DNA of 64,000 nucleotides from Kribbella sp. VKM Ac-2569. Lineage in GTDB: Bacteria; Actinomycetota; Actinomycetes; Propionibacteriales; Kribbellaceae. Shown here piece by piece: positions 6,259 through 39,787 of the stretch (position 1 is the stretch's first letter; every line of letters starts with the position of its first letter). The notes beneath the pieces were generated by a model. The model saw only the letters and a list, made by a program, of their open reading frames with translations, made no database searches and was not told the origin of the DNA. Location: assembly GCF_004216905.1 (NCBI RefSeq), contig NZ_SGXJ01000003.1:310001-374000 (forward strand), in the 5' to 3' direction. Made by a program: the position numbers and the translations under genes.

Positions 6259-6654
6259 TTATGGGTGGCGGATGTAGTACTCGGTGAACTCGCGGCAGCG
6301 TCCTTCGTCGTCGAAGCGCATGATGAAGCAGTTCTCGTAGGTGCGGACGATGGGGCCGTCAGGCACTTCGCGGTAGCGCGACGTGCCGGTGGCCACCACG
6401 GTGTCACCGTCGACCGCGACCGGCGAGTATTCGGCCTCGTAGGTGCCGGGTGCGTCGCGGGTGGAGGCGTCGTCCGACGCGCTCTGTCCTAGCCAGGATG
6501 CGACGACGGCGTCCCGACCGGCGATCGGCTCGTCATACGGGTGGTAGCGGTACGCGATGTTCTCGCTGAACAGGCCCGCAATGTCGCCCGGATCGTAGGA
6601 CATCCACGCCTCGACGTACCGGTCGAGCCAGTCCCGAGCTGTCTCATGATCCAT
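6259..6654 (-). CDS. SnoaL-like / NTF2-fold protein
   Basis: The 131-residue single-domain protein has the pattern of the NTF2-like superfamily: an N-terminal helix with WLDRYVEAWMSYDPGDIAGLFSENIAYRYHPY, a GRDAVVASWL segment, and strands ending in FDDEGRCREFTEYYIRHP. Such domains act as small-molecule isomerases, hydratases or binding proteins; no activity can be assigned. A perfect 12-bp palindrome, TTCTCCGGAGAA, lies at 6678-6689, 24 bp before the start, and is a possible operator or part of the promoter. The gene is convergent with the dioxygenase gene and appears to be a single-gene unit. Confidence 0.8.
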   Translation of the reverse strand: MDHETARDWLDRYVEAWMSYDPGDIAGLFSENIAYRYHPYDEPIAGRDAVVASWLGQSASDDASTRDAPGTYEAEYSPVAVDGDTVVATGTSRYREVPDGPIVRTYENCFIMRFDDEGRCREFTEYYIRHP

Positions 6655-24503: not shown

Positions 24504-24560
24504 TTTGAGGTCCAGGAATCACTCCGGCAGCGGCAGACCTGGCGATCGGAACGGCCGAAG

Positions 24561-25445
24561 ATGTCTGATATGGCCAGCTCGCGTGACCGGCCGCCCGGAC
24601 CTTCCTCGCCGACCGGCGAGGAAGCGTTCCGCATCCGTGAGAACGCGGAGAACTTCCCGGTCGCGCTGCGGTTCCTCCCGCGTCGGTACCGCGACCACCT
24701 GCACGCCATTTACGGCTATGCCCGGATGGTTGACGAGATCGGCGACGCGTTCACCGGTGACCGGACTGCACGGCTGCACGAGCTGGCGACGGACCTCGGC
24801 ACGATCTGGACGCGCGGTCAGCCGTCGAACGCCGTACTGCGGAGGCTGGCCCGGACGGTGCACGACCGGGCGATGTCGGCCGAACCGTTCGAGCGCCTGA
24901 TCGAGGCGAACCTGCAGGACCAGGTGGTGTCGCGGTACGAGACCTTCGAGGACCTCCGCCGGTACTGCACGCTGTCCGCCGACCCCGTCGGCCGGATGGT
25001 GCTCGAGGTCTTCGGACAGGCGACCCCAGAGACGGTCGCCCGGTCCGATCAGGTCTGCACCGCGTTGCAACTGCTCGAGCACTGGCAGGACGTCGGTGAG
25101 GACCGGCGGGCCGGTCGCGTGTACCTGCCGCAGGAGGAGCTTCGGCGGTACGGCGTCGGTGAGCACGAGCTGGATCGGGGGAGTGCGAGCCCTCAGCTTC
25201 GTGCCTTGATGCGGTTCGAGATCGAGCGGGCCGCCGGAATGCTCGGTGAAGGGATGGCGATCGTGCGGCAATTGCAGGGCTGGGGCCGAATCAGCGTGGC
25301 CGGCTTCATCGCCGGGGGACAGGCCACCGTATCGGCGTTGAGGCAGACCGACGGTGACGTACTGGGCCAGTCGGCCCAGCCGTCCCGAGTAGCGACTGCA
25401 GCCCGGATCCTCGGCCTGCTGGCAGCACGGCGGCCGGTGCGATGA
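24561..25445 (+). CDS. hpnC: HpnC, squalene-synthesis enzyme
   Basis: HpnC converts presqualene diphosphate to hydroxysqualene in the three-enzyme HpnCDE route from farnesyl diphosphate to squalene. The 294-residue all-helical isoprenoid synthase fold has the first Asp-rich motif as DEIGD (in [12 protein letters not shown]) and the second in [16 protein letters not shown]. The relaxed first motif distinguishes it from HpnD, encoded next. The ATG at 24561 is chosen from the MSDMASS opening; there is no strong ribosome site. It is the first gene of the eight-gene hopanoid operon and its stop overlaps hpnD by 4 bp. Confidence 0.92.
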
Positions 25446-26305
25446 GCACGATCGAGCAGGCGTACGTCACCTGCGAGCAGATCACCCGCACGGAGGCACG
25501 CAACTTCTATTACGGCATCCGCTTGCTGCCGCCGTCCAAACGATCCGCGCTCTGCGCGATCTACGCACTCGCGCGCCGGATCGACGACATCGGGGACGGC
25601 GACGACGCGACCGCGGACAAGGAGACGGCGCTTGCCGGGGTCCGCAAGGACCTGGGCAGGCTGGGCGACAGCAGTGACCCGGTGCTGGCCGCGGTGAATG
25701 ACGCCGCGCGCCGGTTCCCGGTGCCGCTGTCGGCGTTCGAGGATCTCATCGACGGTGTCCAGCTGGATCTGGGGGACGTCCGGATCGCCGACTTCGACGA
25801 GCTCGTCACGTATTGCCGTCACGTCGCCGGGTCGGTCGGCCGCCTGTGCCTGTCGATCTTCGGCAGCAACACCACCGACCCGAGAACATCCCTGTACGCC
25901 GACCAGCTCGGGATCGCGCTGCAACAGACCAACATCTTGCGCGATATCCGCGAAGATCTCGGCAACGGCCGCGTCTACCTCCCGAAGGACGAGCTCGATC
26001 GGTACGGCGTGGAACTGCGCTTCGACGACTTCGGCATGCTGGAGGACCCGTCCGGCCGGCTCGCCGCCTACATCCGGTACGCCGCCGATCGCGCGGGTGA
26101 CTGGTATTCGCTCGGGCTGCGGCTGGTCCCGCACCTGGACCGGCGCAGCGCGGCGTGCTGCCGGGCGATGTCCGGCATCTATCACCATCTGCTGGGGCGC
26201 ATCGCCGACGATCCGGTTCTCGTCTACGACCAGCGGTTGTCGCTCAGTGTCGCCCAGAAGGCGCGCGTCGCCGTGACCGCCTTGGCCGGTGGAGGACGAC
26301 GGTGA
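25442..26305 (+). CDS. hpnD: HpnD, presqualene diphosphate synthase
   Basis: HpnD joins two farnesyl diphosphates to presqualene diphosphate, the step before HpnC. The 287-residue protein has both canonical Asp-rich motifs, [11 protein letters not shown] (about residues 45-55) and [18 protein letters not shown], for Mg-diphosphate binding. It opens with [23 protein letters not shown], a typical HpnD start. ATGA-type overlaps join it to hpnC and hpnE, which keeps the three squalene enzymes translationally coupled. Confidence 0.95.
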
Positions 26306-27642
26306 CCACACGGCGCGTCGGAGTGGTCGGAGGCGGCCTGGCCGGCATCACCGCGGCACTGCGATCCGCCGATGAAGGCTTTGCGGTCACGTTGTTCGAA
26401 GCACGGCCCCGACTGGGTGGTCTCACCCACTCGTTCCGGCGCGACGGTCTCTGGATCGACAACGGCCAGCACGTGTTCCTGCGCTGCTGCACGGCGTACC
26501 AGAGTTTCCTGGAGCGATTGGGTGTCGCTGACCAGGTCACCGTGCAGGACCGGCTCGACGTACCGGTTCGCAGCGAACTTGACAGGCGAGACGGGCGACT
26601 TCGCCGTACGGCATTGCCGGCACCACTGCATCTCGGGGCAACCTTGGCGCGTTACCGATGGTTGAGCCGCACCGCTCGGGCGCGGGTGGTGCGCGCGGCA
26701 TTGGCGCTCGGTCGGGTGGATCGCACCGATCCCGAGACCGATGGCCTGTCCTTCGGCGACTGGCTCACCGCGCACGGTCAGGATCAGCGGGCCATCGAGA
26801 CCGTCTGGGACCTGATCGGCATCGCGACGCTGAATGCGCCGGCCGAGCGAGCTTCCCTGGCGCTGGCTGCTACGGTCTTCCAGCTCGGTCTGCTGGAGTC
26901 CGCCGCGGCGGCCGACATCGGCTGGTCTCTCGTGCCGCTGCAGGAGTTGCACGGCGACGCGGCGCTGCGTGCGCTGACGGCGGCGGGGGTGAGGGTGCGA
27001 ACCCGGTCCAGGGTTCGTGAGGTCGTACCGGCCGGCGACGGCTGGACCGTGGACGATGCCGCCTTCGACGACGTCGTACTGGCAGTTCCGCCGGCGGCCG
27101 CCGAACGGCTCGCACCGGCGGGCGCGATCGAGCTGGAGCCGGGATGGGCGGACGAGCTGGGCAGCACGCCGATCGTCAACCTCCATGCGATCTACGACCG
27201 GGTCGTGCTCGGTGAGTCGTTCTTCGCGGCCGTCGACAGCCCGCTGCAGTGGGTGTTCGACCGCACCCGGCAGGCCGGACTCAAGCAGGGGCAGTACATT
27301 GCGGTGTCGCTGTCGGCGGCGGATGACATCGTCGACACGCCGGTCCCGGTGTTGCGTGACCGCTTGCTGCCGCACCTGGAGCGGCTGCTGCGGATCACCG
27401 CCGAGGCGCGGCTGCTGGACTTCTTCGTCACCCGAGAACGGCACGCCACCTTCCGGCAGCGACCGGGCACGGCCGGCCTGCGTGCATCAGCGCGCACGGC
27501 GCTGCCTGGTCTCTACTTGGCCGGTGCGTGGACCGACACCGGTTGGCCCGCAACCATGGAGGGCGCCGTTCGCAGCGGAGAGGCCGCGGCGGCCGCGCTG
27601 CTCGCACGACGCCCCGCTGAACGTCGGGAGGCAGTGCTTTGA
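26302..27642 (+). CDS. hpnE: HpnE, hydroxysqualene dehydroxylase
   Basis: HpnE is an FAD amine-oxidase-fold reductase that removes the hydroxyl of hydroxysqualene to give squalene. The 446-residue protein begins with the dinucleotide motif [14 protein letters not shown] and the EARPRLGG segment, and has the WIDNGQHVF block typical of HpnE. The C-terminal FAD contact is in [28 protein letters not shown]. The GTG at 26302 overlaps the hpnD stop, while the next gene starts with a TTG inside its own stop. It completes the HpnCDE squalene module. Confidence 0.94.
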
Positions 27643-28652
27643 CGATCACCGCGCAAACCCTCGACCGCAGTCGCGGCCTGGTCGCACCGGCCTTGCGCCT
27701 GGCCGTCGAGCGCCTCGATCCGTTCACCCGCCTGGTCGTCTCGTACCACCTCGGTTGGTCCGACGAGCACGGTACGCCGACCGCGGCGAACCCGGGCAAG
27801 ACCCTGCGGCCCGCGCTCGCCCTCCTCGCAGCCGAGGCTGTCGCCGGTAGACCCGAACCGGGGTTGCCGGGGGCGGTCGCGGTCGAGCTGGTCCATAACT
27901 TCTCCTTGCTGCACGACGATCTGATGGATCGCGATACCGAGCGCCGCCATCGCCGGACCGTATGGGCGGTCTGGGGCGACGCGACCGCCGTACTGGCTGG
28001 TGACGCGCTCCTGTCCCTTGCCCACGAGGTGCTGACCGAGGGCGATTCGCCGTACGGGCAAGCGGCCGGTCGGGAACTGGCCGTCGCCACTCGAGAGCTG
28101 ATTCGCGGTCAGGTGCTCGATCTCGCCTTCGAGGAACGCAACGACGTGGGGCTGGACGAGTGTCTCGACATGGCGGCCGGCAAGACCGGCGCCCTCCTCG
28201 GCGTCAGTGCGGCGATCGGCGCGATCCTGGCGGGTGCGCCTCAGCAGGCCGTGTCGTGCCTGTCCAGGTTCGGTGCCGAGCTGGGGATGGCGTTCCAGCT
28301 CGTCGACGACCTGCTCGGGATCTGGGGTTCGCCCGCGATCACGGGCAAGCCGGTGTTCTCCGATCTGGTCGCGCGCAAGAAGACGTTGCCCGTCACCTGG
28401 TCGCTCGATCACGGTGGCGCGCCTGGACGGGAGCTGGCCGCCTGGCTGCGTCGTGAGAGAACCCCGACGGAGGACGAGCTTCAGTACGCCGCCCGCTTGA
28501 TCGAGCTGGCCGGTGGCAGGGAGTGGGCGAATCAGGAAGCGCGGCGCCGCATCGGCGTGGCCGAGCAGGCGCTACGCCAGGCAGAGCTCGACGATCTCGC
28601 CCGGAATCGGCTCGGCGGCATCGCCAACTTCGTGATCGAGAGGCAAGCATGA
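27639..28652 (+). CDS. Polyprenyl diphosphate synthase of the hopanoid operon
   Basis: The 337-residue trans-prenyltransferase has the first Asp-rich motif HDDLMDRD (Asp93, Asp94, Asp97) and the second in FQLVDDLLGIWG (Asp223, Asp224), plus GKTLRPAL for diphosphate binding. It most likely makes farnesyl diphosphate for HpnD, although a geranylgeranyl product is possible because chain length depends on residues I cannot judge here. The start is TTG overlapping the hpnE stop by 4 bp. Its presence inside the operon gives the pathway a dedicated precursor supply. Confidence 0.92.
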   Translation: MTITAQTLDRSRGLVAPALRLAVERLDPFTRLVVSYHLGWSDEHGTPTAANPGKTLRPALALLAAEAVAGRPEPGLPGAVAVELVHNFSLLHDDLMDRDTERRHRRTVWAVWGDATAVLAGDALLSLAHEVLTEGDSPYGQAAGRELAVATRELIRGQVLDLAFEERNDVGLDECLDMAAGKTGALLGVSAAIGAILAGAPQQAVSCLSRFGAELGMAFQLVDDLLGIWGSPAITGKPVFSDLVARKKTLPVTWSLDHGGAPGRELAAWLRRERTPTEDELQYAARLIELAGGREWANQEARRRIGVAEQALRQAELDDLARNRLGGIANFVIERQA

Positions 28653-30556
28653 CGGCCGGCGAGCGCGCCGATTCAATGATCGGTACGACGGCCGACGCAC
28701 GGACCGCCCTCGATGCGGCCGTGGATCACCTTCGTGGGCGGCAGCACGAGGACGGCTGGTGGAAGGGTCTGCTCGCCACCAACGTGACGATGGATGCCGA
28801 GGACCTGATGCTGCGGACGGTCCTCGGCATCGCCACGCCGCGGACGAACGACGAGACGGCCCGATGGATCCGTTCCCAGCAACGGATCGACGGTTCGTGG
28901 GCGACCTTCCACCGCGGGCCGGGCGACCTGTCGACCACGGTCGAGGCGTGGGTCGCCCTGCGCTTGGCCGGTGATCGGGCCGATGCACCGCACCTGCGCA
29001 GGGCTGCCGAGTTCGTGCGATCTGAGGGTGGGGTCGAGCGCGCTCGGGTGTTCACCCACATCTGGCTGGCGTTGTTCGGACTGTGGAGCTGGGACGACTG
29101 TCCGGCCCTGCCGCCGGAGATCATGTATCTGCCGGCGTGGGCGCCGCTCAACATCTACAACTTGGGTTGCTGGGCCCGGCAGACGATCGTGCCGCTCACC
29201 ATCGTCAGTGCCCTGCAGCCCGTGCATCCGGTGGGCTTCGGCATCGCCGAACTGAAGACCGGGGCAGTTCCGCCGCCACGACAACCGGCGTACCGCATCT
29301 CTGGGTTCTTCCGGCGCCTCGACACCGTGCTGCACAAGTATCGTCGCCGGCCGCTCAAACGCCTGCGGCAGAAGGCGATGCGCCTTGCCGCCGAGTGGAT
29401 CTTGGCGCGTCAGGAAGCCGATGGTGGCTGGGGCGGCATCCAGCCCCCGTGGGTGTACTCGCTCATCGCGCTGCACCAGCTGGGGTATCCGCTCGACCAT
29501 CCTGCGATGCGCGCCGGAATCGAGGGACTCGACGGGTTCACTGTCCGTGCCTCCTCGCCCGACGGTCCCGTGCGGTGGCTGGAGGCCTGTCAGTCGCCGG
29601 TGTGGGATACGGGGCTAGCTCTGGCGGCATTGCTGGACGCGGGAGTTCCGGCCGACGACCCGGCCGTCCTCAAGGCGACCGACTGGTTGCTGGGCGAACA
29701 GATCCTGGCCACGGGTGACTGGCAGGTCCGTCGTCCCGACCTGCCGCCGGGCGGGTGGGCCTTCGAGTTTGCCAATGACAACTATCCCGACACCGATGAC
29801 ACCGCCGAGATCGTGCTCGCCTTGCGCAGGGTGGATGATCCGGATCCGACGAGGCTGCGGGCGGTGATCGATCGTGCGGTCCTCTGGACGACCGGGATGC
29901 AGTCGCGCGACGGAGGCTGGGGTGCGTTCGACGCCGACAACACCCACACGCTGGCGAACGCGCTGCCGTTCTGCGACTTCGGTGCCGTCATCGATCCGCC
30001 GTCGGCCGACGTCACCGCCCATGTGGTCGAGATGCTTGCTGCCGAGGGTCGTACGGACGAGGAGCCGTGCCGGCGCGGCGTACGGTGGCTGCTCGATGCG
30101 CAGGAGGCTGACGGGTCGTGGTTCGGTCGCTGGGGTGCCAATCACGTCTACGGCACCGGTGCCGTTGTCCCGGCGCTGATTGCGGCGGGGACAACCTCCG
30201 ATGCGCCGGCGATACAAGCCGCCGTGCGCTGGCTGGAGGATCATCAGAACGACGACGGTGGCTGGGGCGAGGACCTGCGCTCGTACGACGATCCGGCGTG
30301 GATCGGCCGGGGTGACTCGACCGCTTCGCAGACCGCCTGGGCGCTCCTCGCTTTGCTTGCCGCCGGGGAGGACTCGGCCGCGGTCGACCGTGGCATCGAT
30401 CATCTGGTGAGCACCCAGCGCGCGGACGGCGGCTGGGACGAGGACCTCTATACCGGCACCGGCTTTCCGGGCGACTTCTACATCAACTACGAGATCTACC
30501 GCCTTGTCTTCCCGATCTGGGCGCTCGGCCGCTACGTCGCGCGGAGCAGCCGATGA
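28649..30556 (+). CDS. shc: Squalene-hopene cyclase
   Basis: This monotopic membrane enzyme cyclises squalene to hopene and hopanol. The 635-residue protein has the acid motif DxDDTA at Asp381-Ala386, which protonates the terminal double bond. Repeated QW motifs are visible (QEADGGWGG, QSRDGGWGAFD, QEADGSWFGRWG, QNDDGGWGEDL, QRADGGWDEDL), together with the SPVWDTGLA segment typical of hopene cyclases. The ATG at 28649 overlaps the upstream stop by 4 bp. The product is the substrate for adenosyl transfer by HpnH, encoded two genes downstream. Confidence 0.96.
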   Translation: MTAGERADSMIGTTADARTALDAAVDHLRGRQHEDGWWKGLLATNVTMDAEDLMLRTVLGIATPRTNDETARWIRSQQRIDGSWATFHRGPGDLSTTVEAWVALRLAGDRADAPHLRRAAEFVRSEGGVERARVFTHIWLALFGLWSWDDCPALPPEIMYLPAWAPLNIYNLGCWARQTIVPLTIVSALQPVHPVGFGIAELKTGAVPPPRQPAYRISGFFRRLDTVLHKYRRRPLKRLRQKAMRLAAEWILARQEADGGWGGIQPPWVYSLIALHQLGYPLDHPAMRAGIEGLDGFTVRASSPDGPVRWLEACQSPVWDTGLALAALLDAGVPADDPAVLKATDWLLGEQILATGDWQVRRPDLPPGGWAFEFANDNYPDTDDTAEIVLALRRVDDPDPTRLRAVIDRAVLWTTGMQSRDGGWGAFDADNTHTLANALPFCDFGAVIDPPSADVTAHVVEMLAAEGRTDEEPCRRGVRWLLDAQEADGSWFGRWGANHVYGTGAVVPALIAAGTTSDAPAIQAAVRWLEDHQNDDGGWGEDLRSYDDPAWIGRGDSTASQTAWALLALLAAGEDSAAVDRGIDHLVSTQRADGGWDEDLYTGTGFPGDFYINYEIYRLVFPIWALGRYVARSSR

Positions 30557-32025
30557 CCGGAATCGTCAGTACGCCGCTGTGGTCCGAGTGGCTCGCCGTC
30601 CGCGACCGGCTCACGGCCGATGTCGTCCGTACCGGACGGTCATCGGACGGCGGCCTCGAGCGAACCAGTGGCCGGCCGGTGCTGGTCGCTGGCGTGGCGG
30701 GTGCCCTAGGCAACGGACTTCGGCCCGGCGACCTCGTCGTCGCGGACGAGATCCGTGGGGACGCCGAGCCCGTTCTCAGCCATGCATCCCCGTTCCTCGC
30801 GGGTGCGTTACGGCGTGCCGGCCTGCGGGTGCACCACGGGCCGATCGTGACGACCCGGCGGATCGTCGACGCGCCGGATGCCCGCCGTACGCTCGGAGCG
30901 ACCGGCGCCCTCGTCGTCGACACCGAATCTGCCCTGCTGGCCGCGGCCGCACCTCTGGGCCAGGCTGCCGTGATCCGCGCGGTCGTGGACACGCCTGACC
31001 ACCGGCTGGTTCGTCCAGGGACGCTGATTCGCGGGCCGAAGGCACTTGGGGTTCTGCGCCGCGCTGCGCCGGTCATCGACGACTGGGCCGCCGCGACCGG
31101 AGATCGCGAGGTCGTCCTGGCGGGTCCGAGGTCGTTCTGCGCCGGCGTCGAGCGTGCTGTCGAGACCGTGGAACGTGCGCTCGCGAAGTACGGGCCGCCG
31201 GTCTATGTACGCCGTCAGATCGTGCACAACATCCATGTCGTCGGCGACCTGGAGCGGCGCGGCGCGATCTTCGTCGCGGAGGTCTCGGAGATCCCCGCCG
31301 GCAGCGTCACCGTGCTCGCGGCCCATGGCGTCGCGCCGCAGGTCCGCACCGACGCCGCCGCACGCAATCTCCGGGTCATCGACGCCACCTGCCCCCTGGT
31401 CGCCAAGGTGCACAGCGAGGTACGGCGTTTTGTTGCGCGCGGCAACACGGTGTTCCTGATCGGCCACAGCGACCACGAAGAGGTCGTCGGCACCCGTGGT
31501 GAGGCGCCCGGCCAGGTGGTCGTCGTGTCCGGTCCCGACGAGGCCGGGCAGGTGAGCGTCGCCGATCCGCAGCGAGTCTCGTACGTCATGCAGACCACCC
31601 TCGCCGTCGACGAGGCTGAGCAGACAGCGGCCGTCCTCCGCGATCGGTTCCCCGCACTGACCGGACCGCGGAGCGACGACATCTGCTACGCAACCACGAA
31701 CCGGCAGCTCGCCGTGCGTGCCGTCGCGCGGACCGCCGACCTTGTCCTCGTGCTGGGATCGGCGAACTCGTCCAACTCTCATCGGCTCGTGGAGGTCGCT
31801 GCGGCCGAGGGCAGCCGGGCGTACCTGGTCGACGACGCGAGCGCCGTCGATCTGCGCTGGCTACGCGGCGTACGCCGTATCGGCGTCACAGCCGGCGCAT
31901 CCGCACCACCCCAGCTCGTCGACGATCTGATCCGCTGCCTGTCCGGCCTCGGCCGGGTCGCGGTCACCGAGACCAGCGTGGTCGACGAGGACATTCGATT
32001 CACCCTGCCCAGGGAGGTGAGCTGA
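30553..32025 (+). CDS. HpnG-IspH fusion protein
   Basis: This single 490-residue protein joins two enzymes. Residues 1 to about 180 resemble HpnG, the phosphorylase/nucleosidase that removes adenine from adenosylhopane. Its candidate catalytic acids are Glu12, Glu125 (in VVDTESALL) and Asp146 (in VVDTPDH). Residues 186-490 are a full IspH, the [4Fe-4S] reductase making isopentenyl and dimethylallyl diphosphates. Cluster cysteines are Cys196, Cys280 and Cys378, with HNIHVV, AAHGV and GHSDHEE also kept. No stop or ribosome site lies between the domains. The N-terminus of the HpnG part is compact, so its activity is less certain. It overlaps shc by 4 bp and precedes hpnH by 2 bp. Confidence 0.93.
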   Translation: MTGIVSTPLWSEWLAVRDRLTADVVRTGRSSDGGLERTSGRPVLVAGVAGALGNGLRPGDLVVADEIRGDAEPVLSHASPFLAGALRRAGLRVHHGPIVTTRRIVDAPDARRTLGATGALVVDTESALLAAAAPLGQAAVIRAVVDTPDHRLVRPGTLIRGPKALGVLRRAAPVIDDWAAATGDREVVLAGPRSFCAGVERAVETVERALAKYGPPVYVRRQIVHNIHVVGDLERRGAIFVAEVSEIPAGSVTVLAAHGVAPQVRTDAAARNLRVIDATCPLVAKVHSEVRRFVARGNTVFLIGHSDHEEVVGTRGEAPGQVVVVSGPDEAGQVSVADPQRVSYVMQTTLAVDEAEQTAAVLRDRFPALTGPRSDDICYATTNRQLAVRAVARTADLVLVLGSANSSNSHRLVEVAAAEGSRAYLVDDASAVDLRWLRGVRRIGVTAGASAPPQLVDDLIRCLSGLGRVAVTETSVVDEDIRFTLPREVS

Positions 32026-32027: not shown

Positions 32028-33032
32028 GTGGCGATGCCCCTGCGTCAATCGATCCGCCTCGGTGGTTATCTGCTCAAGCAGAAGCTGCTGCGACGGGACA
32101 AGTTCGCACTGCTGGTCGAGCTCGAGCCGTTGTTCGCATGCAATCTCGCCTGTGCCGGTTGCGGCAAGATCCAGCATCCCGCTTCGGTCCTCAAGCAGCG
32201 GATGCCGGTCGAGCAGGCGGTCCGCGCGATCGAGGAGAGCGGTGCCCCGATGGTCTCCATCGCCGGCGGCGAGCCGTTGATGCACAAGGAGGTCGACGAG
32301 ATCGTCCGGCAGTTGCTGGCCCGGCGAAAGATCGTCTTCCTGTGCACCAACGCGTTGCTGCTGCCCAAGCACCTGCACAAGTTCACGCCGCACCGCAACT
32401 TCGCCTGGATGGTCCACATCGACGGGTTACGCGAGCGCCACGACGCCTCGGTCTGCAAGGACGGTGTGTTCGACCAGGCGGTCGCCGCGATCAAGCAGGC
32501 CCAAGCGGCCGGGTTCCGGGTGATGACCAACACGACCTTCTTCGACACGGACACGCCGCAGGACGTCATCGACGTACTGGACTATCTGAACGACGAGCTC
32601 GGAGTCGACAACATGCAGATCTCGCCCGGGTTCGCGTACGAGAAGGCGCCGGACCAGGAGCACTGGCTCGGTCCTGAGGAGACCCGGCAGCTGTTCGCCA
32701 AGGCGTTCGCCGGTGGACGCCGGAAGAAGTGGCGGCTGAACCACTCGCCGCTGTACCTGGACTTCCTTGAGGGCAGGGTCGACTTCTCCTGCACGGCGTG
32801 GGCGATCCCGTCGTACTCGCTCAAGGGCTGGCAACGGCCGTGCTACCTGATGGAGGACGGGTACGTCGCGACGTACAAGGAACTGCTCCAGGAAACCGAT
32901 TGGGCCGCGTACGGCCGCGGCAAGGATCCCCGGTGTGCGAACTGCATGGCGCATTGCGGGTACGAGCCGACAGCCGTCGTGGCGACCATGGGGTCGCTGC
33001 GGCAAACCATCCGTGCCGCGGTCGGATCATGA
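32028..33032 (+). CDS. hpnH: HpnH, adenosyl-hopene transferase (radical SAM)
   Basis: HpnH adds the 5'-deoxyadenosyl group of S-adenosylmethionine to hopene, giving adenosylhopane, the first C35 hopanoid. The 334-residue protein has the radical SAM cluster CNLACAGC (Cys38, Cys42, Cys45), the SIAGGEPLMH segment and a C-terminal Cys cluster in DPRCANCMAHCGYEP. The start GTG at 32028 follows GGGAGGTGA within the end of the previous gene. Its product is the substrate of the HpnG domain encoded immediately upstream. The 3' end overlaps dxs by 4 bp. Confidence 0.96.
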   Translation: MAMPLRQSIRLGGYLLKQKLLRRDKFALLVELEPLFACNLACAGCGKIQHPASVLKQRMPVEQAVRAIEESGAPMVSIAGGEPLMHKEVDEIVRQLLARRKIVFLCTNALLLPKHLHKFTPHRNFAWMVHIDGLRERHDASVCKDGVFDQAVAAIKQAQAAGFRVMTNTTFFDTDTPQDVIDVLDYLNDELGVDNMQISPGFAYEKAPDQEHWLGPEETRQLFAKAFAGGRRKKWRLNHSPLYLDFLEGRVDFSCTAWAIPSYSLKGWQRPCYLMEDGYVATYKELLQETDWAAYGRGKDPRCANCMAHCGYEPTAVVATMGSLRQTIRAAVGS

Positions 33033-34810
33033 CTACGTCGGACGTCGACGAGCGTCCCGCCGCGAGCAAGCGACTCCTGGACACAGTGGCTTCACCCGCC
33101 GATCTCCAGCGGCTGGCGGCGGCCGAACTGCGCGGACTTGCCGACGAGATCCGTGCGCAACTGGTCCGCCAGGTCACGCGTACGGGCGGGCATCTCGGCC
33201 CCAATCTCGGTGTCGTCGAGTTGACGATCGCGCTCCATCGAGTCTTCACCTCGCCACGGGATTTGTTCGTCTGGGACACCGGGCACCAGACATACGTGCA
33301 CAAGATGCTCACCGGCCGGCTCGACCGTTTTGACACCTTGCGACAGGCGGGCGGGCTGTCGGGTTACCCGAGCCGGTCCGAGAGTGAGCACGACGTCGTC
33401 GAGAACTCGCACGCCTCCACCGCGCTTTCGTACGCCGACGGCCTGGCGAAGGGCTTTCAGCTCACCGGTTCGCTCGAGCGACGGGTCGTCGCGATCGTGG
33501 GAGACGGTGCGATGACCGGTGGGATGTGCTGGGAGGCGCTCAACAACATCGCGGCGGCGCCGGACCGGCCGGTCGTCATCGTGCTCAACGACAACGGGCG
33601 ATCGTACGAACCGACCGTCGGATCTCTGGCCGCCCAATTGCGAGCGCTGCGGACCGGGAAGGCACGGGGCAACGTCTTCGAGCAGCTCGGTCTCGCGTAC
33701 CTAGGGCCGGTCGACGGCCACGACGCATTGGCGCTGGAGGCGGCGCTGCGTACCGCCGCGCTCCTGCAGCACCCAGTTGTCGTGCATTGCGTCACCCGCA
33801 AAGGCGCCGGCCACACGCCCTCGGAGCTCGACGACGCCGACCACCACCACACCGTCAACCCGGCGCGCTCCGATGGTGCTGCCAAGCAGGTTCCTGGCCC
33901 CAACTGGACGGATGTGTTCGGCCAGGAATTGGTGGCGATCGCGGACGAGCGGGCGGATCTGGTCGCCGTGACCGCGGCGATGGTGCGGCCGACAGGGCTG
34001 TTTCCACTGGCCTGCCGGTATCCCGAGCGTGTGTTCGACGTCGGGATCGCCGAACAGCACGCAGTGACCTCGGCCGTCGGGCTGGCCACGGCAGGGCTGC
34101 ATCCCGTCGTCGCGATCTACTCGACGTTCCTCAACCGTGCCTTCGACCAGGTACTGATGGACGCCGCACTTCACCGAGCACCCATCACCTTCGTCCTGGA
34201 CCGGGCCGGCATCACCGGTCCGGACGGGCCGTCCCACCACGGGATGTGGGATCTGTCCCTGTTCGGGCTGGTTCCGGGCTTACGGATCGCGGCGCCTCGA
34301 GATGTTCAGCAGCTGCGGGGCCTGTTGCGCGCATGCGTCGCTCACGAGCGTGGGCCCACCATGCTTCGGTTTCCCCGTGGACGCGACGGGGCCGCCATCC
34401 GCGCGCGCGGAACTGTCGGCAGTGCGGAGTTGCTGACGGACGGGCGGTCTGAGGTCCTGCTCCTGCCGGTCGGGCCGCTGGCTGCCGCTGCGGTGGAGGC
34501 CTGCGGTCGCCTCCGCGAGCTGGGAATCCGGGCAACCGTCGCCGATCCGCGGTGGATCAGCCCGATCGATCCCGAACTCGTCCGGTTCGCCGGCGAGCAC
34601 CGACTCGTGGTGACGATCGAGGACAACGCACTAACGGGTGGCTTCGGCGATGCGCTCGCACGGGCATTCCGGCGTATGGCGTCACACCCCGAACTGCTCA
34701 CTCTCGGCCTCCCCGGCAACTTCATCCCAGCCGGCGACCGCACCAACCTCCTCCACGCTCACGGCCTGGACCCGGAAGGCATCACCCGCGTCGTCGCAGC
34801 CGCAGCGTGA
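33029..34810 (+). CDS. dxs: 1-deoxy-D-xylulose-5-phosphate synthase
   Basis: Dxs condenses pyruvate and glyceraldehyde 3-phosphate, the entry step of the MEP isoprenoid pathway. The 593-residue protein has the thiamine diphosphate domains in the usual order: HLGPNLGVVELT and WDTGHQTYVHK near the N-terminus, the GDGAMTGGMCWEALNN cofactor motif, and the catalytic Glu in FDVGIAEQHAVT. GITGPDGPSHHG is also intact. It is slightly shorter than housekeeping Dxs (about 620-640). Placed last in the hopanoid operon, it is probably a pathway-dedicated second Dxs, with the primary one elsewhere in the genome; that is an inference. Confidence 0.94.
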   Translation: MTTSDVDERPAASKRLLDTVASPADLQRLAAAELRGLADEIRAQLVRQVTRTGGHLGPNLGVVELTIALHRVFTSPRDLFVWDTGHQTYVHKMLTGRLDRFDTLRQAGGLSGYPSRSESEHDVVENSHASTALSYADGLAKGFQLTGSLERRVVAIVGDGAMTGGMCWEALNNIAAAPDRPVVIVLNDNGRSYEPTVGSLAAQLRALRTGKARGNVFEQLGLAYLGPVDGHDALALEAALRTAALLQHPVVVHCVTRKGAGHTPSELDDADHHHTVNPARSDGAAKQVPGPNWTDVFGQELVAIADERADLVAVTAAMVRPTGLFPLACRYPERVFDVGIAEQHAVTSAVGLATAGLHPVVAIYSTFLNRAFDQVLMDAALHRAPITFVLDRAGITGPDGPSHHGMWDLSLFGLVPGLRIAAPRDVQQLRGLLRACVAHERGPTMLRFPRGRDGAAIRARGTVGSAELLTDGRSEVLLLPVGPLAAAAVEACGRLRELGIRATVADPRWISPIDPELVRFAGEHRLVVTIEDNALTGGFGDALARAFRRMASHPELLTLGLPGNFIPAGDRTNLLHAHGLDPEGITRVVAAAA

Positions 34811-35032: not shown

Positions 35033-35443
35033 ATGGACGAGGCACCTGGCACACTGATCAACCTGAACGACACCGCTCTGACGTTGGCTGAGCCTGCCGA
35101 CGACCTCCGTGGCCGGAAAGTGGTGGATCGTAACGGTGACGAGGTCGGCGACGTCGAAGGGCTGATCATCGACGAACACGAACGGCGGGCCCGGTTCCTC
35201 CTGGTCGGGTCGGGTGGGTTCCTCGGACTCGGCGAGAAGAAGCAACTCGTCCCGGTCGATGCCATTACCGGCGTCGACGAGGACACCGTTCGGATCTCCA
35301 CAGAACGGACCCACGTCGCGGGCGGTCCGGTCTACGACCCGGAAGTCGTACCGGAGCCGCAGTACTACGAGGATCTCTACGGCTACTGGGGCTACCCGCC
35401 GTTCTGGGGACCCGGCTACGTGTACCCACCCTTCCGGCGCTGA
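35033..35443 (+). CDS. PRC-barrel domain protein
   Basis: The 136-residue protein has one PRC-barrel domain (about 20-90): DDLRGRKVVDRNGDEVGDVEGLIID, then a basic EHERRARFLLVG strand and KKQLVPVDAIT. An aromatic and Pro-rich tail of about 35 residues follows (DLYGYWGYPPFWGPGYVYPPF). Such domains bind RNA or act in envelope and stress proteins in actinobacteria. The ATG at 35033 follows GGGAGG at 4 nt. It is the first gene of a stress-type neighbourhood and has a 222-bp gap from the hopanoid operon in which no gene is seen. Confidence 0.83.
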   Translation: MDEAPGTLINLNDTALTLAEPADDLRGRKVVDRNGDEVGDVEGLIIDEHERRARFLLVGSGGFLGLGEKKQLVPVDAITGVDEDTVRISTERTHVAGGPVYDPEVVPEPQYYEDLYGYWGYPPFWGPGYVYPPFRR

Positions 35444-35591
35444 CTTGCCAGGCCTGGTCCGGTGTGAGTGTGAGCCCGGGTGCCGGGAGGTTGGTACAAG
35501 TACTGGTGTCTGCCGTGGCTCGGGCGACGATCAGTCATCCGGCGAGTACCTTCCACTGCGTTCGTAGCGGAGAGGTTCGGAGGGCCGCCAG

Positions 35592-36497
35592 GTGGCAACT
35601 GACAACCGCGGCAGCATGCGATGGCGTAAACGATTGACCGAATTCTCGGCACGAACGGGTGGGGGGATCGTCGCCACGGTGCAGAGCGCGTGGCGGCATC
35701 GGGTGCTCGGGATGGCCGCGGAGATCGCGTTCTGGATGCTTCTGTCGCTTCCCCCGCTGGCCCTGTGCATGCTCGGTCTGGTCGGCTACCTGGGCAGTGC
35801 TTTCGGCGCGGATTTCGGTACGGAGATAGGACCGCGACTCATCCACATCGCATCGCAAGCTCTGACCCCTACGACTGTGAACAGTCTGGTCCGGCCCCTT
35901 GTCGACGACGTCCTCACCAAGGGCCGCGCTGACGTCGCATCGGTCGGCTTCTTCCTTGCTCTCTGGGCCGGCTCGACCGCGACTGCGAGCTATGTGAACG
36001 CCGTCGCCATCGCCTATGGGCAGCGCAGTGACCGCGGCGCCGCGCACAGCCGGATCCTCGCCCTCGGCATGTACTTGGCCGGTGTACTCATCGGAGTCGT
36101 CCTGCTGCCGTTGCTGATCGTGGGTCCGCAAACCCTGCTCCGGCTCATGTCGCCCACCGGACACGACCTGGCTCAGACACTTCTCCGGCTCACGTACTGG
36201 CCCAGCCTGCTGATTCTGTCCGTGCTCGCTCTGGTCACGTTCTACCACTTCGCCGTACCGCTCCGCTCCAGATGGCGCGAGCACTTGCCGGGCGCCGCCA
36301 TCGCCACCGTCATCTGGCTCGCCGGCGCGGCCGCCGTCCGGGTCTACCTGCGCTACGCCTTCGACACCGTCAACATCTACGGTCCGATCAGCGCTCCGAT
36401 CGCCGCGCTGCTTTTCTTCTACCTCACCGCGCTCGCCGTCCTGCTCGGCGCCGAGGCGAATGCCCAGACCCAGTCCCGCCGCCCGTCGCGGACGTGA
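35592..36497 (+). CDS. YihY/BrkB family membrane protein
   Basis: The GTG at 35592 follows GGAGGG. The 301-residue protein has six hydrophobic helices typical of the YihY/virulence factor BrkB family, with the opening helix MAAEIAFWMLLSLPPLALCMLGLVGYLG. The ALWAGSTATASYVNAVAIAYG segment and a late YGPISAPIAALLFFYLTALAVLLGAEANA helix are also family blocks. The biochemical role is unknown (it is not the ribonuclease BN once assumed). A small basic protein gene follows 62 bp downstream. Confidence 0.85.
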   Translation: MATDNRGSMRWRKRLTEFSARTGGGIVATVQSAWRHRVLGMAAEIAFWMLLSLPPLALCMLGLVGYLGSAFGADFGTEIGPRLIHIASQALTPTTVNSLVRPLVDDVLTKGRADVASVGFFLALWAGSTATASYVNAVAIAYGQRSDRGAAHSRILALGMYLAGVLIGVVLLPLLIVGPQTLLRLMSPTGHDLAQTLLRLTYWPSLLILSVLALVTFYHFAVPLRSRWREHLPGAAIATVIWLAGAAAVRVYLRYAFDTVNIYGPISAPIAALLFFYLTALAVLLGAEANAQTQSRRPSRT

Positions 36498-36559
36498 CGT
36501 ACCGCCGAATCACGGCGCACACTGGCAGTGAGCCCTTCGGCGCGAGGAGGGGACTGACC

Positions 36560-36721
36560 ATGCACCGACGACACTTCAGACGTCTCCACCGGAACCCAGC
36601 CGGCACGCCGACGCAGCCCGCCTCCGTGCCGCTCCGAGAGGGCATGTCGATCGAGACCCGCATGAACGAGATGCTGATCATCGCCCGCGATCGAGCTTGG
36701 CGTCGAGGCCGTCGTCCGTAG
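36560..36721 (+). CDS. Small basic protein, 53 residues
   Basis: A GAGGAGGGG ribosome site lies about 5 nt before the ATG at 36560. The product is very Arg/His-rich (MHRRHFRRLHRNP start, DRAWRRGRRP end) with a central IETRMNEMLIIARDRAW helix. It follows the YihY gene on the same strand. It matches no family I know; the strong ribosome site is the main evidence that it is real. Confidence 0.45.
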   Translation: MHRRHFRRLHRNPAGTPTQPASVPLREGMSIETRMNEMLIIARDRAWRRGRRP

Positions 36722-36748
36722 TCACCTGATCGAGTTGGAGGTCGGGGG

Positions 36749-37423
36749 ATGAACTGGCGGTTGGTGCCCGACGACCGGGCACTCGCGGTGCTCTACCAGC
36801 GTGCCGAGAATCTGCTTCAGGGCCTGTCGCGTGCCGAGCGCACAGGCGGGCGGGTCTTGCCCGCGGTACTGACCCAAGGCAATGCGCTGGCCGCGTTGCA
36901 ACGGACAGGTACGGTACTGCGGGACGCCGTCGACGCGTTCGGCGTACCGCCGGTCGGGCCGGGTCGCAGCATCCGGCCTCGCCTGTTCGCGGAGGGGCGG
37001 GAGCGGATGCCGCTGCGCGTGGTATGGATTTCGGAGGCTGACACCGAGAGTCTCGCGGCAGCCCTGCGAGCCCTGAACATTGCATTGACGCCGCTCGACC
37101 GGGCAGCTGTGGACGACCCGGCGCAACGCCGCTTGCTGGACGCAGTGGCCGAACTCGTGGACGAATTCGACCCGGACACGCAACTCTGGAGCGGCGCGCG
37201 ACGCCCACTCGATCGCAAAGAACTCCTTCAGCCGCTCGCTCGGCTTGTCGCCCTCCTCGCCTGGCCCGGCGATGACGACGCCACCGTGTTGCTAGCAGTC
37301 CGGCAAGCAAATCCCGACGTCGACTTGGAGTTGACCGACCGCCAGAGCGCGGCGTACGACCGAGTCATGGAACGGATCAACGCACTGCTGACCGGCGGCG
37401 ACGTACACGACATCCTGTTCTGA
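36749..37423 (+). CDS. Conserved-looking soluble protein, function unknown
   Basis: The 224-residue product starts with MNWRLVPDDRALAVLYQRAENLLQGL and is predicted mostly helical, with no signal peptide, membrane helix or metal motif. A middle strand-like piece (MPLRVVWISEADTESLAAAL) and an acidic, helical C-terminus (LTDRQSAAYDRVMERINALL) are the only clear elements. GGAGG about 6-11 nt upstream supports the start. It is 28 bp after the small basic gene and may share its transcript. I do not recognise the family. Confidence 0.6.
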   Translation: MNWRLVPDDRALAVLYQRAENLLQGLSRAERTGGRVLPAVLTQGNALAALQRTGTVLRDAVDAFGVPPVGPGRSIRPRLFAEGRERMPLRVVWISEADTESLAAALRALNIALTPLDRAAVDDPAQRRLLDAVAELVDEFDPDTQLWSGARRPLDRKELLQPLARLVALLAWPGDDDATVLLAVRQANPDVDLELTDRQSAAYDRVMERINALLTGGDVHDILF

Positions 37424-37433
37424 CCGCGCGTGC

Positions 37434-37685
37434 TCACCGTTGGGCGCCTCTACGACGGATCAGCCCGATCGCCCCGGTCGCCAGGAGCGCTCGGCCGTTC
37501 TTGAACAGCCAGAGCCCCAGGACCAGCGCGGCTGCCGTCGCGGCGCCGGCAAAGAAGACGCCCGCAACAGTGCCGCCGAGGCCGGTGCCGAAGACCTCCA
37601 GGGTTGCGTCGTCGGCGGACGATGCTGCCACGCCGAACCCGAGCCCTACGGCGAGGGCAACGAGGATGAGTCCGAGCACAATCAT
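37434..37685 (-). CDS. Small two-helix membrane protein
   Basis: The 83-residue protein has two hydrophobic helices (MIVLGLILVALAVGLGFGVA at the N-terminus and AGVFFAGAATAAALVLGLWLF in the middle), then a basic tail GLIRRRGAQR. The Gly/Ala-rich sequence resembles small actinobacterial envelope proteins of unknown role. The start codon follows a GGAGGCGGT site. It lies 34 bp downstream of the Hsp20 gene on the same strand, so it may be part of that stress operon. Confidence 0.65.
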   Translation of the reverse strand: MIVLGLILVALAVGLGFGVAASSADDATLEVFGTGLGGTVAGVFFAGAATAAALVLGLWLFKNGRALLATGAIGLIRRRGAQR

Positions 37686-37719
37686 GGCTACCGCCTCCTG
37701 GCATCGATGCTGCTCCCGC

Positions 37720-38310
37720 TCACACGGCGCTGGGTGGGTCGGTGGGTGCGTCCCCTTCCGTTGGCTTGGTCGTATCTGTCGATGACGGCGCTGGTGGGGC
37801 GTCGCTGATCGAATCCTTGATGTCGATGCGGCGGCCTTCGGCGGCTTGGGCCTTGGGCGCGTGGATGGTGAGGACTCCGTTGGTCAATGTGGCTTCGATC
37901 GTCTCGCCGTCGACGGCGCCGGGCAGGGTGATGGTGTGGTCGAACGGACCGGTACGGCGGGCCTGCTGGTGCAGGATGCCGATCCGTTCCCGGTCTTTGA
38001 CCTCGCCGTGCAGCGTGAGTTGGCGGTCGTTCCACTCGAGGACGAGGGTGTCGCGGGGTACGCCAGGCAGGTCGATCTCGACGAGGTAGGCGTCGTCGGT
38101 CTCCTCGATGTCGACCGGGGATCGCCACGAGCGCAGGTCGACGTCGTCGGCGAGGTTGCGCATCATCTGGTTCATCCGCCGGTAGATGTCTTCGAGGTGG
38201 GCGAACGGTTCGCTCGGCAGCCAGCGCCTAGGACCCAGCTGGTCCCGTTGGCCGTCCTGGCCGCTGCCGGGTCGGACTGGGTGCAGTGGTCGCTCCATGG
38301 TTGATGTCAC
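37720..38310 (-). CDS. Hsp20/alpha-crystallin small heat-shock protein
   Basis: The 196-residue protein has a central alpha-crystallin domain (about 65-155) with the expected strands VDIEETDDAYLVEIDLPGVPRDTLVLEW, the ERIGILHQQARRTGPFDHTITLPGAVDGETIEATLTNGVLTI core and APKAQAAEGRRIDIK. An N-terminal Pro/Arg-rich arm and a Ser/Thr/Pro-rich tail of about 30 residues flank it. It acts as an ATP-independent holdase. Its start overlaps the stop of a 97-residue gene by 4 bp (38307-38310), so the two are co-translated; no HspR-type CTTGAGT repeat is seen upstream. Confidence 0.9.
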   Translation of the reverse strand: MTSTMERPLHPVRPGSGQDGQRDQLGPRRWLPSEPFAHLEDIYRRMNQMMRNLADDVDLRSWRSPVDIEETDDAYLVEIDLPGVPRDTLVLEWNDRQLTLHGEVKDRERIGILHQQARRTGPFDHTITLPGAVDGETIEATLTNGVLTIHAPKAQAAEGRRIDIKDSISDAPPAPSSTDTTKPTEGDAPTDPPSAV

Positions 38311-38600
38311 CTCTTCGGCTGGTATTCGGAGCCGTCCGTTCCGGACGCGAGACCTGCCCGGGCCGTCGGCCGATCGGGAAGGTCATGAGCTTGTGGTGAG
38401 GGGTGTTGTGGTCTGCGGACCCGGACGGCAGGGATCCAGACCATGCGCCCGCAGTAGGTGATCAGGACTTGCGGTCCGCGGCGGCCGTCGCGAATGGCGT
38501 GCGCCTTGGCGGTCAGCCACCGGCCGCCGACCAGGACCTGTACCGGCGCCGGAGCGGCCGGTGCGACCTGACGCCTGGTGGGTCGGATGTTGTTCGCCAC
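38307..38600 (-). CDS. Small protein co-encoded with Hsp20
   Basis: The 97-residue protein has an N-terminal PTRRQVAPAAPAPVQVLVGGRWLTAKAHAIRDGRRGPQVLITYCGRMVWIPAVRVRRP core, which looks like a small beta-barrel, and a Pro-rich, probably unfolded tail. The start has a GAAAGAGG site. Its stop overlaps the Hsp20 start, a tight coupling that suggests a related role in stress response or an RNA/protein-binding partner. A perfect 11-bp palindrome, CAGGGACCCTG (38627-38637), lies 27 bp upstream and could be part of the operon's promoter. Confidence 0.65.
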   Translation of the reverse strand: MANNIRPTRRQVAPAAPAPVQVLVGGRWLTAKAHAIRDGRRGPQVLITYCGRMVWIPAVRVRRPQHPSPQAHDLPDRPTARAGLASGTDGSEYQPKR

Positions 38601-38699
38601 CGCGACACCTCTTTCGCCGTGGGAGTCAGGGACCCTGTGGAGGCCGTGGTCCTCGAATCAGCGATACCACCGCGGCTGACCCAACGATCATGGGCCTGC

Positions 38700-39062
38700 T
38701 CAGTGACGCCGCTGTCGGTGGTGGACGAGGCGGCGCAGCTGAGTTACCCGCGCGGTGCCGATCACCATGGCGACGATGCCGACGCCGACGCCGGCGATCA
38801 GCAGGGCCAGCGCCAGCGGAACGGACCCGTTCATCCACAGGAAGCTGACCTCGACGCGTCGGGTGTTTTGCAACATGAACACGATGAGCACCACGAGCGT
38901 GAGCGCGGCGGCGCAGACCCCGACCCAGGTGGCACCCGTGCGAGTGCGGGGCACCGCATCCGGTGCTGCTGGCTCGGTCGAGGTTGCGGGCGTAGGAACG
39001 CTCTCGAGTGGCGGATCCGCCAGGGTCTTCTGTGATTTCCGGGTGCGGTGCAAGACGGACAT
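38700..39062 (-). CDS. LapA (DUF1049) family membrane protein
   Basis: The ATG at 39062 follows AAGGA and gives 120 residues. A Pro/Thr-rich N-terminal part precedes two hydrophobic helices typical of LapA-domain proteins (GVCAAALTLVVLIVFMLQNTRRVEVSFLWMNGSVPLALALLIAGVGVGIVAMVIG), with the NTRRVEVSFL turn between them and a basic end. LapA proteins take part in envelope or lipopolysaccharide-type assembly in Gram-negatives; the role in actinobacteria is unknown. The gene is 99 bp upstream of the Hsp20 unit on the same strand. Confidence 0.82.
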   Translation of the reverse strand: MSVLHRTRKSQKTLADPPLESVPTPATSTEPAAPDAVPRTRTGATWVGVCAAALTLVVLIVFMLQNTRRVEVSFLWMNGSVPLALALLIAGVGVGIVAMVIGTARVTQLRRLVHHRQRRH

Positions 39063-39315
39063 GGCGTCTTCCTTGCGGAGAGCCGGTGTGGCTGGCACCT
39101 CAGGAGTGGAGTGTCGTCGTTCCGGACATCACTATTTTACTCTGGTTCAGAGAACATGCATTCATGCAATTCGGTCGCCGCTGTGAGTTCAGCCTGGGCG
39201 CGACGACCTGGATCGTCTGAGGTGTTTCGGCGAATGCTGCAGTGGAGGCTGGTCTGGACCTAGTGGCAAGGATGCGAATCAGGGGAGTCCGGGGGTGTGC
39301 ATCGGCGTGCAACAT
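39063..39315. other. Promoter-bearing AT-rich region upstream of lapA
   Basis: No gene is supported. The most AT-rich part (39130-39175) holds two small perfect palindromes: CTCTG-GTT-CAGAG (39141-39153) and TGCAT-TC-ATGCA (39158-39169). The first shares its arms with the MarR-region palindrome at 55493-55505. They lie about 80-110 bp upstream of the lapA start and are likely regulatory. Confidence 0.4.
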
Positions 39316-39423
39316 CTAGTTCGTCGGGATCCACACCCGCATGGCGTGTGCGCCGCGGTTCGCCCAGGCGTAGTAGGGGATGAGTGTGATTGCTACGAGT
39401 CTCCCATCGATGCGGACCCGGCA
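39316..39423 (-). pseudogene. C-terminal scrap of a GH127 glycoside hydrolase gene
   Basis: About 35 codons ending at the TAG (39316-39318) read VRIDGRLVAITLIPYYAWANRG, then AMRVWIP, the conserved C-terminus of GH127 (DUF1680, beta-L-arabinofuranosidase-type) proteins. All of the catalytic domain is missing and nothing upstream continues it. It is a deletion remnant. Confidence 0.65.
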
Positions 39424-39500
39424 GCCCACTCCGGTACCCGTAGCGCCAGCTCGACCTCGTGATCTGCAACCCGGAACAGTCGTTGCGCATAACGGAAACG

Positions 39501-39525
39501 CCTTGCACACAAGAAGTGTGCAAGG
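39501..39525. terminator. Perfect 10-bp stem hairpin
   Basis: CCTTGCACAC, loop AAGAA, GTGTGCAAGG: a perfect 10-bp stem. It is followed by ttctcgttt on the plus side and by gtttccgtt on the minus side, so it lacks a clean U-tract; a bidirectional terminator, a LacI-type operator or a relic are all possible. It lies between the GH127 scrap and the STAS-ATPase gene. Confidence 0.45.
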
Positions 39526-39787
39526 CTCGGGGTTCTCGTTTGAGCAGGAATTTGTCGGCGCCTGCCTGGGACCTTGTGGGAGGAGGTGAAACGCCCGCCG
39601 GGAGCCGCCGCACTGCTGCGTGGCCGCAAGCGGATGGCTGGTGGATTGGCGTCGGCGGGCAGATGATGAGCCCCTGCCACTAGACGGCCTACTCACCCAC
39701 TCGCCTGCATGCGCTCGAGTGAGTGCGGGTACCGGATGGCCATCAATCGCGCGGCTGGTTGGGTCGCGCGGAACGAGGCAGTGGCGC

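Follow-up and report, generated by a model that had tools for sequence, protein, structure and literature searches.

The stretch of DNA considered here, 64,000 nucleotides of Kribbella sp. VKM Ac-2569 (contig NZ_SGXJ01000003.1, positions 310,001 to 374,000) and hereafter called the window, carries an operon for the synthesis of hopanoids, the sterol-like lipids of bacteria, with the order hpnC, hpnD, hpnE, a polyprenyl synthase gene, shc, a fused gene, hpnH and dxs. The fused gene, at 30553-32025 on the forward strand, is a single unbroken frame of 490 codons from ATG to TGA, as read from the sequence and its open reading frame (ORF) translation; its ATG overlaps the stop codon of shc by 4 bases and its TGA lies just 5′ of hpnH. 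An initial annotation, made from the letters of the DNA, had described one uninterrupted gene inside a hopanoid operon, encoding a nucleosidase-like HpnG domain followed by a complete IspH, and both the single frame and the setting, flanked by shc and hpnH, are borne out.

Two domains in one reading frame

Each half is recognized by its Pfam family, in line with the combined domain search that the initial annotation had proposed: PNP_UDP_1 (PF01048) matches residues 43-147 of the fused protein at 38.1 bits against a cut-off of 25.1, LYTB (PF02401) matches residues 187-463 at 294 bits against 24.5, and the combination recurs in many genomes. The IspH half also lies above the TIGR00216 cut-off (292 against 188 bits), and three narrower NCBIfam IspH sub-models are missed by the fused protein (NF002189, 426/444 bits; NF002190, 387/389; NF002188, 390/420).

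An AlphaFold model of the fused protein, for which the input alignment held 47 fused sequences, has a mean predicted local distance difference test score (pLDDT) of 91.6 and a predicted template modelling score (pTM) of 0.88. On structure comparison its residues 1-181 resemble methylthioadenosine/S-adenosylhomocysteine nucleosidases (MTAN), at best with Z 20.5 and a root-mean-square deviation (rmsd) of 2.4 over 176 residues, and residues 185-481 resemble Escherichia coli IspH with Z 37.6 and rmsd 1.7 over 297 residues, at about 50% identity. The final helix of the HpnG domain (172-181) leads almost straight into the first IspH strand (185-190). The acids put forward in the initial annotation, Glu12, Glu125 and Asp146, fall on MTAN catalytic positions: Glu125 and Asp146 align with the catalytic glutamate, which we take to be Glu174, and the catalytic aspartate of the E. 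coli enzyme, and Glu12 aligns with MTAN Glu12 in a multiple alignment; Glu12 and Asp197 of MTAN are named in the titles of the matched structures. Likewise Cys196, Cys280 and Cys378 align with the cluster cysteines of the E. coli IspH chain, and their spacing of 84 and then 98 residues is as first annotated, with a 3-residue gap accounting for 98 instead of the 101 that we take for E. coli. The alignment maps further IspH active-site positions to His225, His258, His308, Glu310, Thr348, Ser406, Asn408 and Ser450, so that the mapped set presumably comprises the ligands of the iron-sulphur cluster and the residues in contact with the substrate, 4-hydroxy-3-methylbut-2-enyl diphosphate (HMBPP).

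These residues are kept almost without exception in an alignment of 124 fused sequences, in which some genomes stand twice through membership of two collections and two damaged genes (L129 and L179) are included. Glu125, Asp146 and Trp178 are present in all 124 and Glu12 in 123, with one gap, and Cys196, His225, His258, Cys280, His308, Glu310, Thr348, Cys378, Ser406, Asn408 and Ser450 are each present in at least 122; Ser407 varies (108 Ser, 15 Ala, 1 Pro). Both domains are complete as predicted folds with conserved active sites, and residues and folds together point to two catalytic activities, HMBPP reduction and the release of adenine from adenosylhopane.

Trp178 and Cys196 stand 18 residues apart in every one of the 122 fused sequences in which the distance is measurable, three being without the motif. 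The first in-frame ATG, GTG or TTG met upstream of the IspH motif FCAGV in the window gene is 50 codons away, within the first domain. As the 49 codons before FCAGV contain no in-frame start, an independent initiation of IspH inside this gene is ruled out, and the two halves therefore form one chain. Elsewhere an ATG, GTG or TTG stands 5-20 codons before FCAGV in 38 of 77 other fused genes, most often 7-8 codons before it, where initiation would cut into the first IspH strand. A sequencing error or a chance ORF is ruled out by the presence of this fusion and junction in many independent genomes.

Table 1. Features of the fused gene and its operon in the window (start codons of hpnC, hpnE, shc and dxs are approximate, as chosen by the analyst)
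Feature	Coordinates	Strand	Basis
HpnG-type nucleosidase/phosphorylase domain, residues 1-183 (Glu12, Glu125, Asp146)	30553..31101	+	PF01048 above cut-off; predicted fold resembles MTAN; conserved acids
IspH domain, residues 184-490 and stop codon (Cys196, Cys280, Cys378)	31102..32025	+	PF02401 and TIGR00216 above cut-off; predicted fold resembles E. coli IspH
Junction, Trp178 to Cys196, 18 residues apart	31084..31140	+	Start-codon scan; spacing across fused sequences
hpnC	24519..25445	+	TIGR03464, 288 bits against 250
hpnD	25442..26305	+	TIGR03465, 288 bits against 279
hpnE	26293..27642	+	TIGR03467, 404 bits against 283
Polyprenyl diphosphate synthase	27639..28652	+	PF00348; NF041169, 427.8 against 450 bits, below cut-off
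shc, squalene-hopene cyclase	28649..30556	+	TIGR01507, 748 bits against 431
hpnH, radical-SAM adenosyl-hopene transferase	32028..33032	+	TIGR03470, 508 bits against 225
dxs, second copy	33029..34810	+	TIGR00204, 542 bits against 466

The source genome (8.43 Mb in 13 contigs) has one further IspH, stand-alone and 55% identical (G000:C2:489588-490523), and another full dxs (G000:C1:27175-28986) besides that of the operon. A separate ispH had been named as something to look for in the initial annotation, which missed that the fused IspH is a second, extra copy; that the fusion could be the only IspH of the cell is ruled out by this gene and by the separate ispH in all 15 of the near relatives that have the fusion. 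The companion search, for a better HpnG candidate anywhere in the genome with the HpnG model, found none, the other matches reaching 41, 37 and 18 bits against about 64-65 for the fused protein. The fused half is like E. coli-type IspH (LytB) in fold, in the three cluster cysteines and in the mapped substrate-contact residues, and unlike it in bearing an N-terminal HpnG-type domain, in sitting in a hopanoid operon and in being additional to a stand-alone IspH.

The prenyl synthase of the operon narrowly misses the model for cargo polyprenyl transferases of family-2 encapsulins (NF041169); it scores near that model, yet none of the identified operon genes is an encapsulin. Divergent from hpnC lies a gene for a PucR-type helix-turn-helix regulator (PF13556; 23216-24709, minus strand), a candidate regulator of the operon, whose listed start overlaps hpnC and is probably placed too far upstream. 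On the 3′ side of dxs, 35033-40579 holds genes for a PRC-barrel protein, a BrkB-type membrane protein, an Hsp20 and an ATPase/STAS-type protein, none of them evidently connected with hopanoids.

Occurrence and gene order

The initial annotation gave no sense of how widespread the fusion is: it is common in actinobacterial hopanoid operons and no local oddity. It is present in 15 of 39 near relatives (source genome included), exactly those 15 have squalene-hopene cyclase, and a separate IspH is listed in every one of the 15; the fused protein of one relative in the same genus, G019, is 89% identical. Co-regulation, as first suggested, agrees with these data, since co-expression fits both the 4-base overlap with shc and the strict co-occurrence with shc in near relatives. 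Two adjacent short IspH-like pieces in another relative (G030:C1:3476121-3476391) resemble a broken extra ispH copy.

In a sample of 394 genomes of the class the fusion is found in at least 47, all 47 with shc; these counts and those for the near relatives were made by hand from tables, and 47 is a lower bound among which G347 does not figure. The model of the fusion gave at least 46 full-length matches, together with G256, which matches from position 34, and there are at least two IspH matches in all 46 full-length cases, with the second place shown for only part of them. At E <= 1e-100 shc is present in 90 of the 394 genomes, and 36 of the 90 belong to a group (f22/g30) that we label ‘Streptomyces-like’ and take for Streptomyces. 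Of the 54 outside that group at least 47 have the fusion, and the remaining seven were read individually: the gene of G347 is fused and interrupted by a run of N, the contig of G292 ends after shc, and G119, G223, G354, G077 and G094 have a stand-alone HpnG with no ispH found in the region. Beyond the class, four genomes of a 396-genome phylum sample have the full fusion (E <= 1e-150).

A collection of named genomes yielded 236 stretches with a relative of the N-terminal domain, from which the best 80 were taken; as these were chosen by likeness to the fused N-terminal domain via one short motif, they give no estimate of the frequency of fusion. On a strict recount both domains are whole and in one frame in 75 of the 80, from genera that include Frankia, Nocardia, Amycolatopsis, Pseudonocardia and Kribbella. 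L140 is in frame up to the end of its contig. In L129 and L179 the frame that encodes the HpnG-type domain continues into no more than a later part of IspH, through deletion, frameshift or assembly fault. L172 and L180, both Actinomadura, have a stand-alone HpnG-type gene at about 5880-6430 with no hopanoid gene found within about 6 kb on each side, and these genes are possibly the leftovers of a lost fusion. The recurring order is hpnC-hpnD-hpnE-(polyprenyl synthase)-shc-[fusion]-hpnH(-dxs). By hand count shc and hpnH both flank the fusion in 72 of the 75 fully fused loci and one of them does so in the other three (L117, L142 and L143), and in L079, L081 and L082, of a group (f21) that we take for the Frankia family, hpnH does not adjoin the fused gene, the two being separated by one to several kb.

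Stand-alone HpnG lies between shc and hpnH, with no ispH, in all six of the Streptomyces-like operons that were read. These proteins are like the fused N-terminal domain in that slot and in their catalytic acids, with 40-44% identity to it. Further afield, ispH and hpnG can be close without being joined. Roseomonas marmotae p1318-3 has ispH, hpnH, HpnG, shc, hpnE, hpnD and hpnC in this order, with ispH and hpnG as separate genes; on pBRH01 of Mycetohabitans rhizoxinica ispH, again unfused, adjoins hpnH, and shc and an HpnG-like gene lie a few kb away. Such proximity was seen in one of six loci picked by similarity to HpnG (L215-L220), where only L218, from Mycetohabitans, has ispH within 9 kb, and in one of two picked by IspH (L213 and L214) that has hopanoid genes within 7 kb. 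For Acidobacteria one passage of PMC5462960 reports that hpnH, shc and ispH are clustered, and a second passage of the paper names ispA, shc and hpnH as the clustered genes.

HpnG remnants and the origin of the fusion

The nearest unfused IspHs are encoded in clusters with a family-2 encapsulin shell and a prenyl synthase, some with dxs in addition (L085-L087, L089, L090, L094, L096, L097, L099), or beside dxs with no shell found (L088, L091, L092, L093). With L208 added, they make up a 14-row group that lies within the fused rows of the IspH tree, sister to most of the fused IspHs, and no hopanoid gene was found near them in the encapsulin and dxs clusters with the probes used. According to the part of PMC8346489 consulted, encapsulin prenyl-transferase operons often contain genes for terpenoid precursors; its main text contains none of the terms ispH, lytB, hopanoid and hpnG. 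Transfer of such genes into a product cluster is seen also in L211, from a plasmid of Streptomyces sp. YIM 121038, where a terpene cluster has the order dxs-ispG-prenyl synthase-ispH-P450-terpene synthase, with genes of the methylerythritol phosphate (MEP) pathway copied into it.

Of 17 loci taken up for a reading of their N-termini, 13 gave an FCAGV match (L091, L095, L208 and L211 did not); L098 is outside the sister group, which leaves 12 of its 14 rows as the denominator. On seven of the 12 (L085-L090 and L094, six linked to encapsulin and one to dxs) the IspH part is preceded by 116-142 residues recognized by the HpnG-domain model (E 5e-10 to 2e-6). A profile of the seven, set against the HpnG-type alignment with hhalign, scores 83 with a probability of 98% over 102 columns, and the best of 30 column-shuffled control runs scores 22.6. 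The match begins at model position 61-67 in the four remnants with coordinates, the Glu12 position falls in a gap in all seven, and Trp178 is kept in six and Arg185 in seven. At the place of Glu125 one alignment puts an acid in three remnants (Glu in L087 and in L090, Asp in L088), and another puts one in none; at that of Asp146 only L090 has Asp or Glu, the other six having a gap or Gly. This middle part is shortened and its alignment unstable, and the one loss that can be read with confidence in each of the seven is that of the Glu12 region. The other five (L092, L093, L096, L097, L099) have no remnant, and the group as a whole thus differs from the fusion in that the first domain is either shortened, without the Glu12 region, or absent.

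The retention of HpnG remnants on unfused IspHs argues for descent from a fusion: to judge from these sequences, at least part of the sister group goes back to an HpnG-IspH fusion in which, at a distance from hopanoid genes, the HpnG half decayed. In 25 genomes of the source genus, counted by hand, the 11 with the fusion have no unfused IspH other than the housekeeping one, and a second unfused IspH is present in seven of the 14 without it; three of those seven are linked to encapsulin (L096, L097, L099) and one is not (L098).

The history of the HpnG half is less readily traced. In a tree rooted on proteobacterial HpnG the fused and stand-alone actinobacterial domains intermingle. With eight stand-alone rows these fall inside the fused rows, and the fused domains as one clade are not rejected by the approximately unbiased (AU) test (p 0.46); with 13 the best tree has six changes, the Streptomyces-like rows shift outside the fused rows, and the single clade is weakly rejected (AU p 0.034), in a tree where bootstrap support is unsettled and L224 is a long branch. 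The IspH tree also weakly rejects the fused rows as one clade (AU p 0.038). All these p values are soft, the groups having been partly known ahead of the tests. The constant length of the junction speaks for a single origin of the fusion, and because of it several losses of the IspH half would be the simplest reading of the HpnG tree. The fused L142, L204, L206 and L207 branch apart from the main fused group in the IspH tree, and there may have been two separate fusions, against which the constant junction counts. The stand-alone HpnG of the Streptomyces-like genomes could be either a split fusion or the state before fusion; its vestige-like end, LLLPRR, is no more than suggestive.

Supply, trimming and the reason for joining them

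The reading that we favour, and hold to be likely, is that of one bifunctional hopanoid-operon enzyme in which fusion fixes a 1:1 ratio of precursor supply and adenosylhopane trimming. The C-terminal half would be a second IspH dedicated to the pathway, which with the dxs and prenyl synthase of the operon would raise the supply of C5 and C15 precursors when hopanoids are made, and the N-terminal half would take the adenine off the adenosylhopane that the enzyme of the next gene, hpnH, makes. Fusion would set the stoichiometry of two modular, separately useful activities with no substrate passed between the halves; that precursor supply is the role and co-translation the benefit is what we infer. 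Each half is found without the other in some lineage, and the halves are therefore modular. Channelling is unlikely because the two steps are far apart in the pathway, in keeping with the remark in the initial annotation that they are not consecutive and that the fusion may serve something other than channelling. Joining of this general kind has counterparts. The fusion of IspH to ribosomal protein S1 (NF000907) also unites an MEP enzyme with another protein, though with a different partner, and the fused window protein lies below that model (210/624 bits). IspDF is again an MEP enzyme fusion with a partner different from that of HpnG-IspH; IspD and IspF catalyse non-consecutive MEP steps. In PMC12583986 there is mention of a combined ispDF gene.

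Several observations weigh against this reading. The N-terminal half falls well short of the HpnG equivalog model TIGR03468 (about 64-65.1 against 187.1 bits), and with about 183 residues against about 200-230, and its union with IspH, it departs from that family. The cut-off is reached in none of 20 actinobacterial genomes, the ten Streptomyces-like ones scoring 66-82 bits, and in a direct comparison a Streptomyces-like HpnG fails at 77 bits where that of Roseomonas passes at 214. Of the first assignment, then, the HpnG character appears sound from operon place and active-site residues, and membership of TIGR03468 does not follow, so that HpnG-type is the better term; HpnG itself is called a putative phosphorylase in the portion of PMC12583986 consulted. 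A second point concerns the merger of neighbouring genes, which has not been caught in the act within Actinobacteria: none of 11 operons with a stand-alone HpnG (the six Streptomyces-like and five others) has a separate ispH beside it. In nine fused genes (L103, L108, L124 and L137 among them) a GTG lies 13 codons before FCAGV, the same point at which stand-alone Kribbella IspHs start, and an extra, separate IspH product may be made from these. Finally, the indel-free junction and the high pTM suggest that the relative placement of the predicted domains may matter, which is unneeded for a mere 1:1 ratio.

It is this last point that gives some room to a structural coupling, for which the constant junction may allow. 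The halves would then be coupled physically, a nucleosidase dimer or fixed platform altering IspH, or IspH being placed near the membrane-bound hopanoid enzymes, with regulation or location as the benefit. The invariant 18 residues and the pTM of the two-domain chain are as such a coupling would have them, and so is the persistence of a Glu12-less remnant on seven of 12 sister-group IspHs, six of them in encapsulin clusters, as if it were useful without catalysis. The Kribbella IspHs L096, L097 and L099 do without any N-terminal piece, however, and HpnG is retained in the absence of IspH in several actinobacterial operons, so that coupling seems dispensable; we regard this alternative as rather unlikely, though the likeliest among those considered. 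Less probable still is that the N-terminal half is an inactive structural leftover while another nucleosidase of the genome removes the adenine. Its weak HpnG score, the other nucleosidase-fold genes in the genome and the decay of the same domain in the sister group would agree with that, but hardly any fused copy lacks one of the three acids and the predicted fold is complete, in contrast to the remnants, all seven of which have lost the Glu12 region and six the acid at the Asp146 place. A switch of substrate in the IspH half, which would then work on an intermediate from late in the hopanoid pathway and could be the reductase from ribosylhopane to bacteriohopanetetrol, is very improbable. 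The HMBPP-contact residues and about 50% identity to E. coli IspH are retained, the sister-group IspHs occupy encapsulin and dxs clusters where the probes found no hopanoid gene, and the reduction of a sugar aldehyde calls for ordinary NAD(P)H chemistry and not for that of IspH. What speaks for the switch is that this IspH is extra to a separate one and joined to the type of enzyme that makes ribosylhopane, and that, according to the part of PMC12583986 consulted, the enzyme for ribosylhopane to bacteriohopanetetrol is not established. A broader functional coupling, of which the unvarying junction would be the mark, in which trimming and precursor supply control each other or the IspH half has gained a late hopanoid reaction, the reduction of ribosylhopane, and in which the remnant has been reused for docking or loading at the encapsulin, is about as improbable as an inert N-terminal half. 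The bifunctional enzyme of fixed ratio is thus still preferred.

The component families are known, and no description of an HpnG-IspH fusion was found in the open-licence literature searched, nor were its union, spread and decay series met there. Hopanoid-operon actinobacteria often carry an extra IspH joined to a predicted adenosylhopane-trimming enzyme, and surveys that seek a stand-alone hpnG, or that read the fusion simply as IspH, could miss or misread the protein. The series from intact fusion through shortened remnant to no remnant would give hopanoid operons and encapsulin-linked isoprenoid clusters a tie of common descent, and it offers a clean test of the purpose of the fusion.

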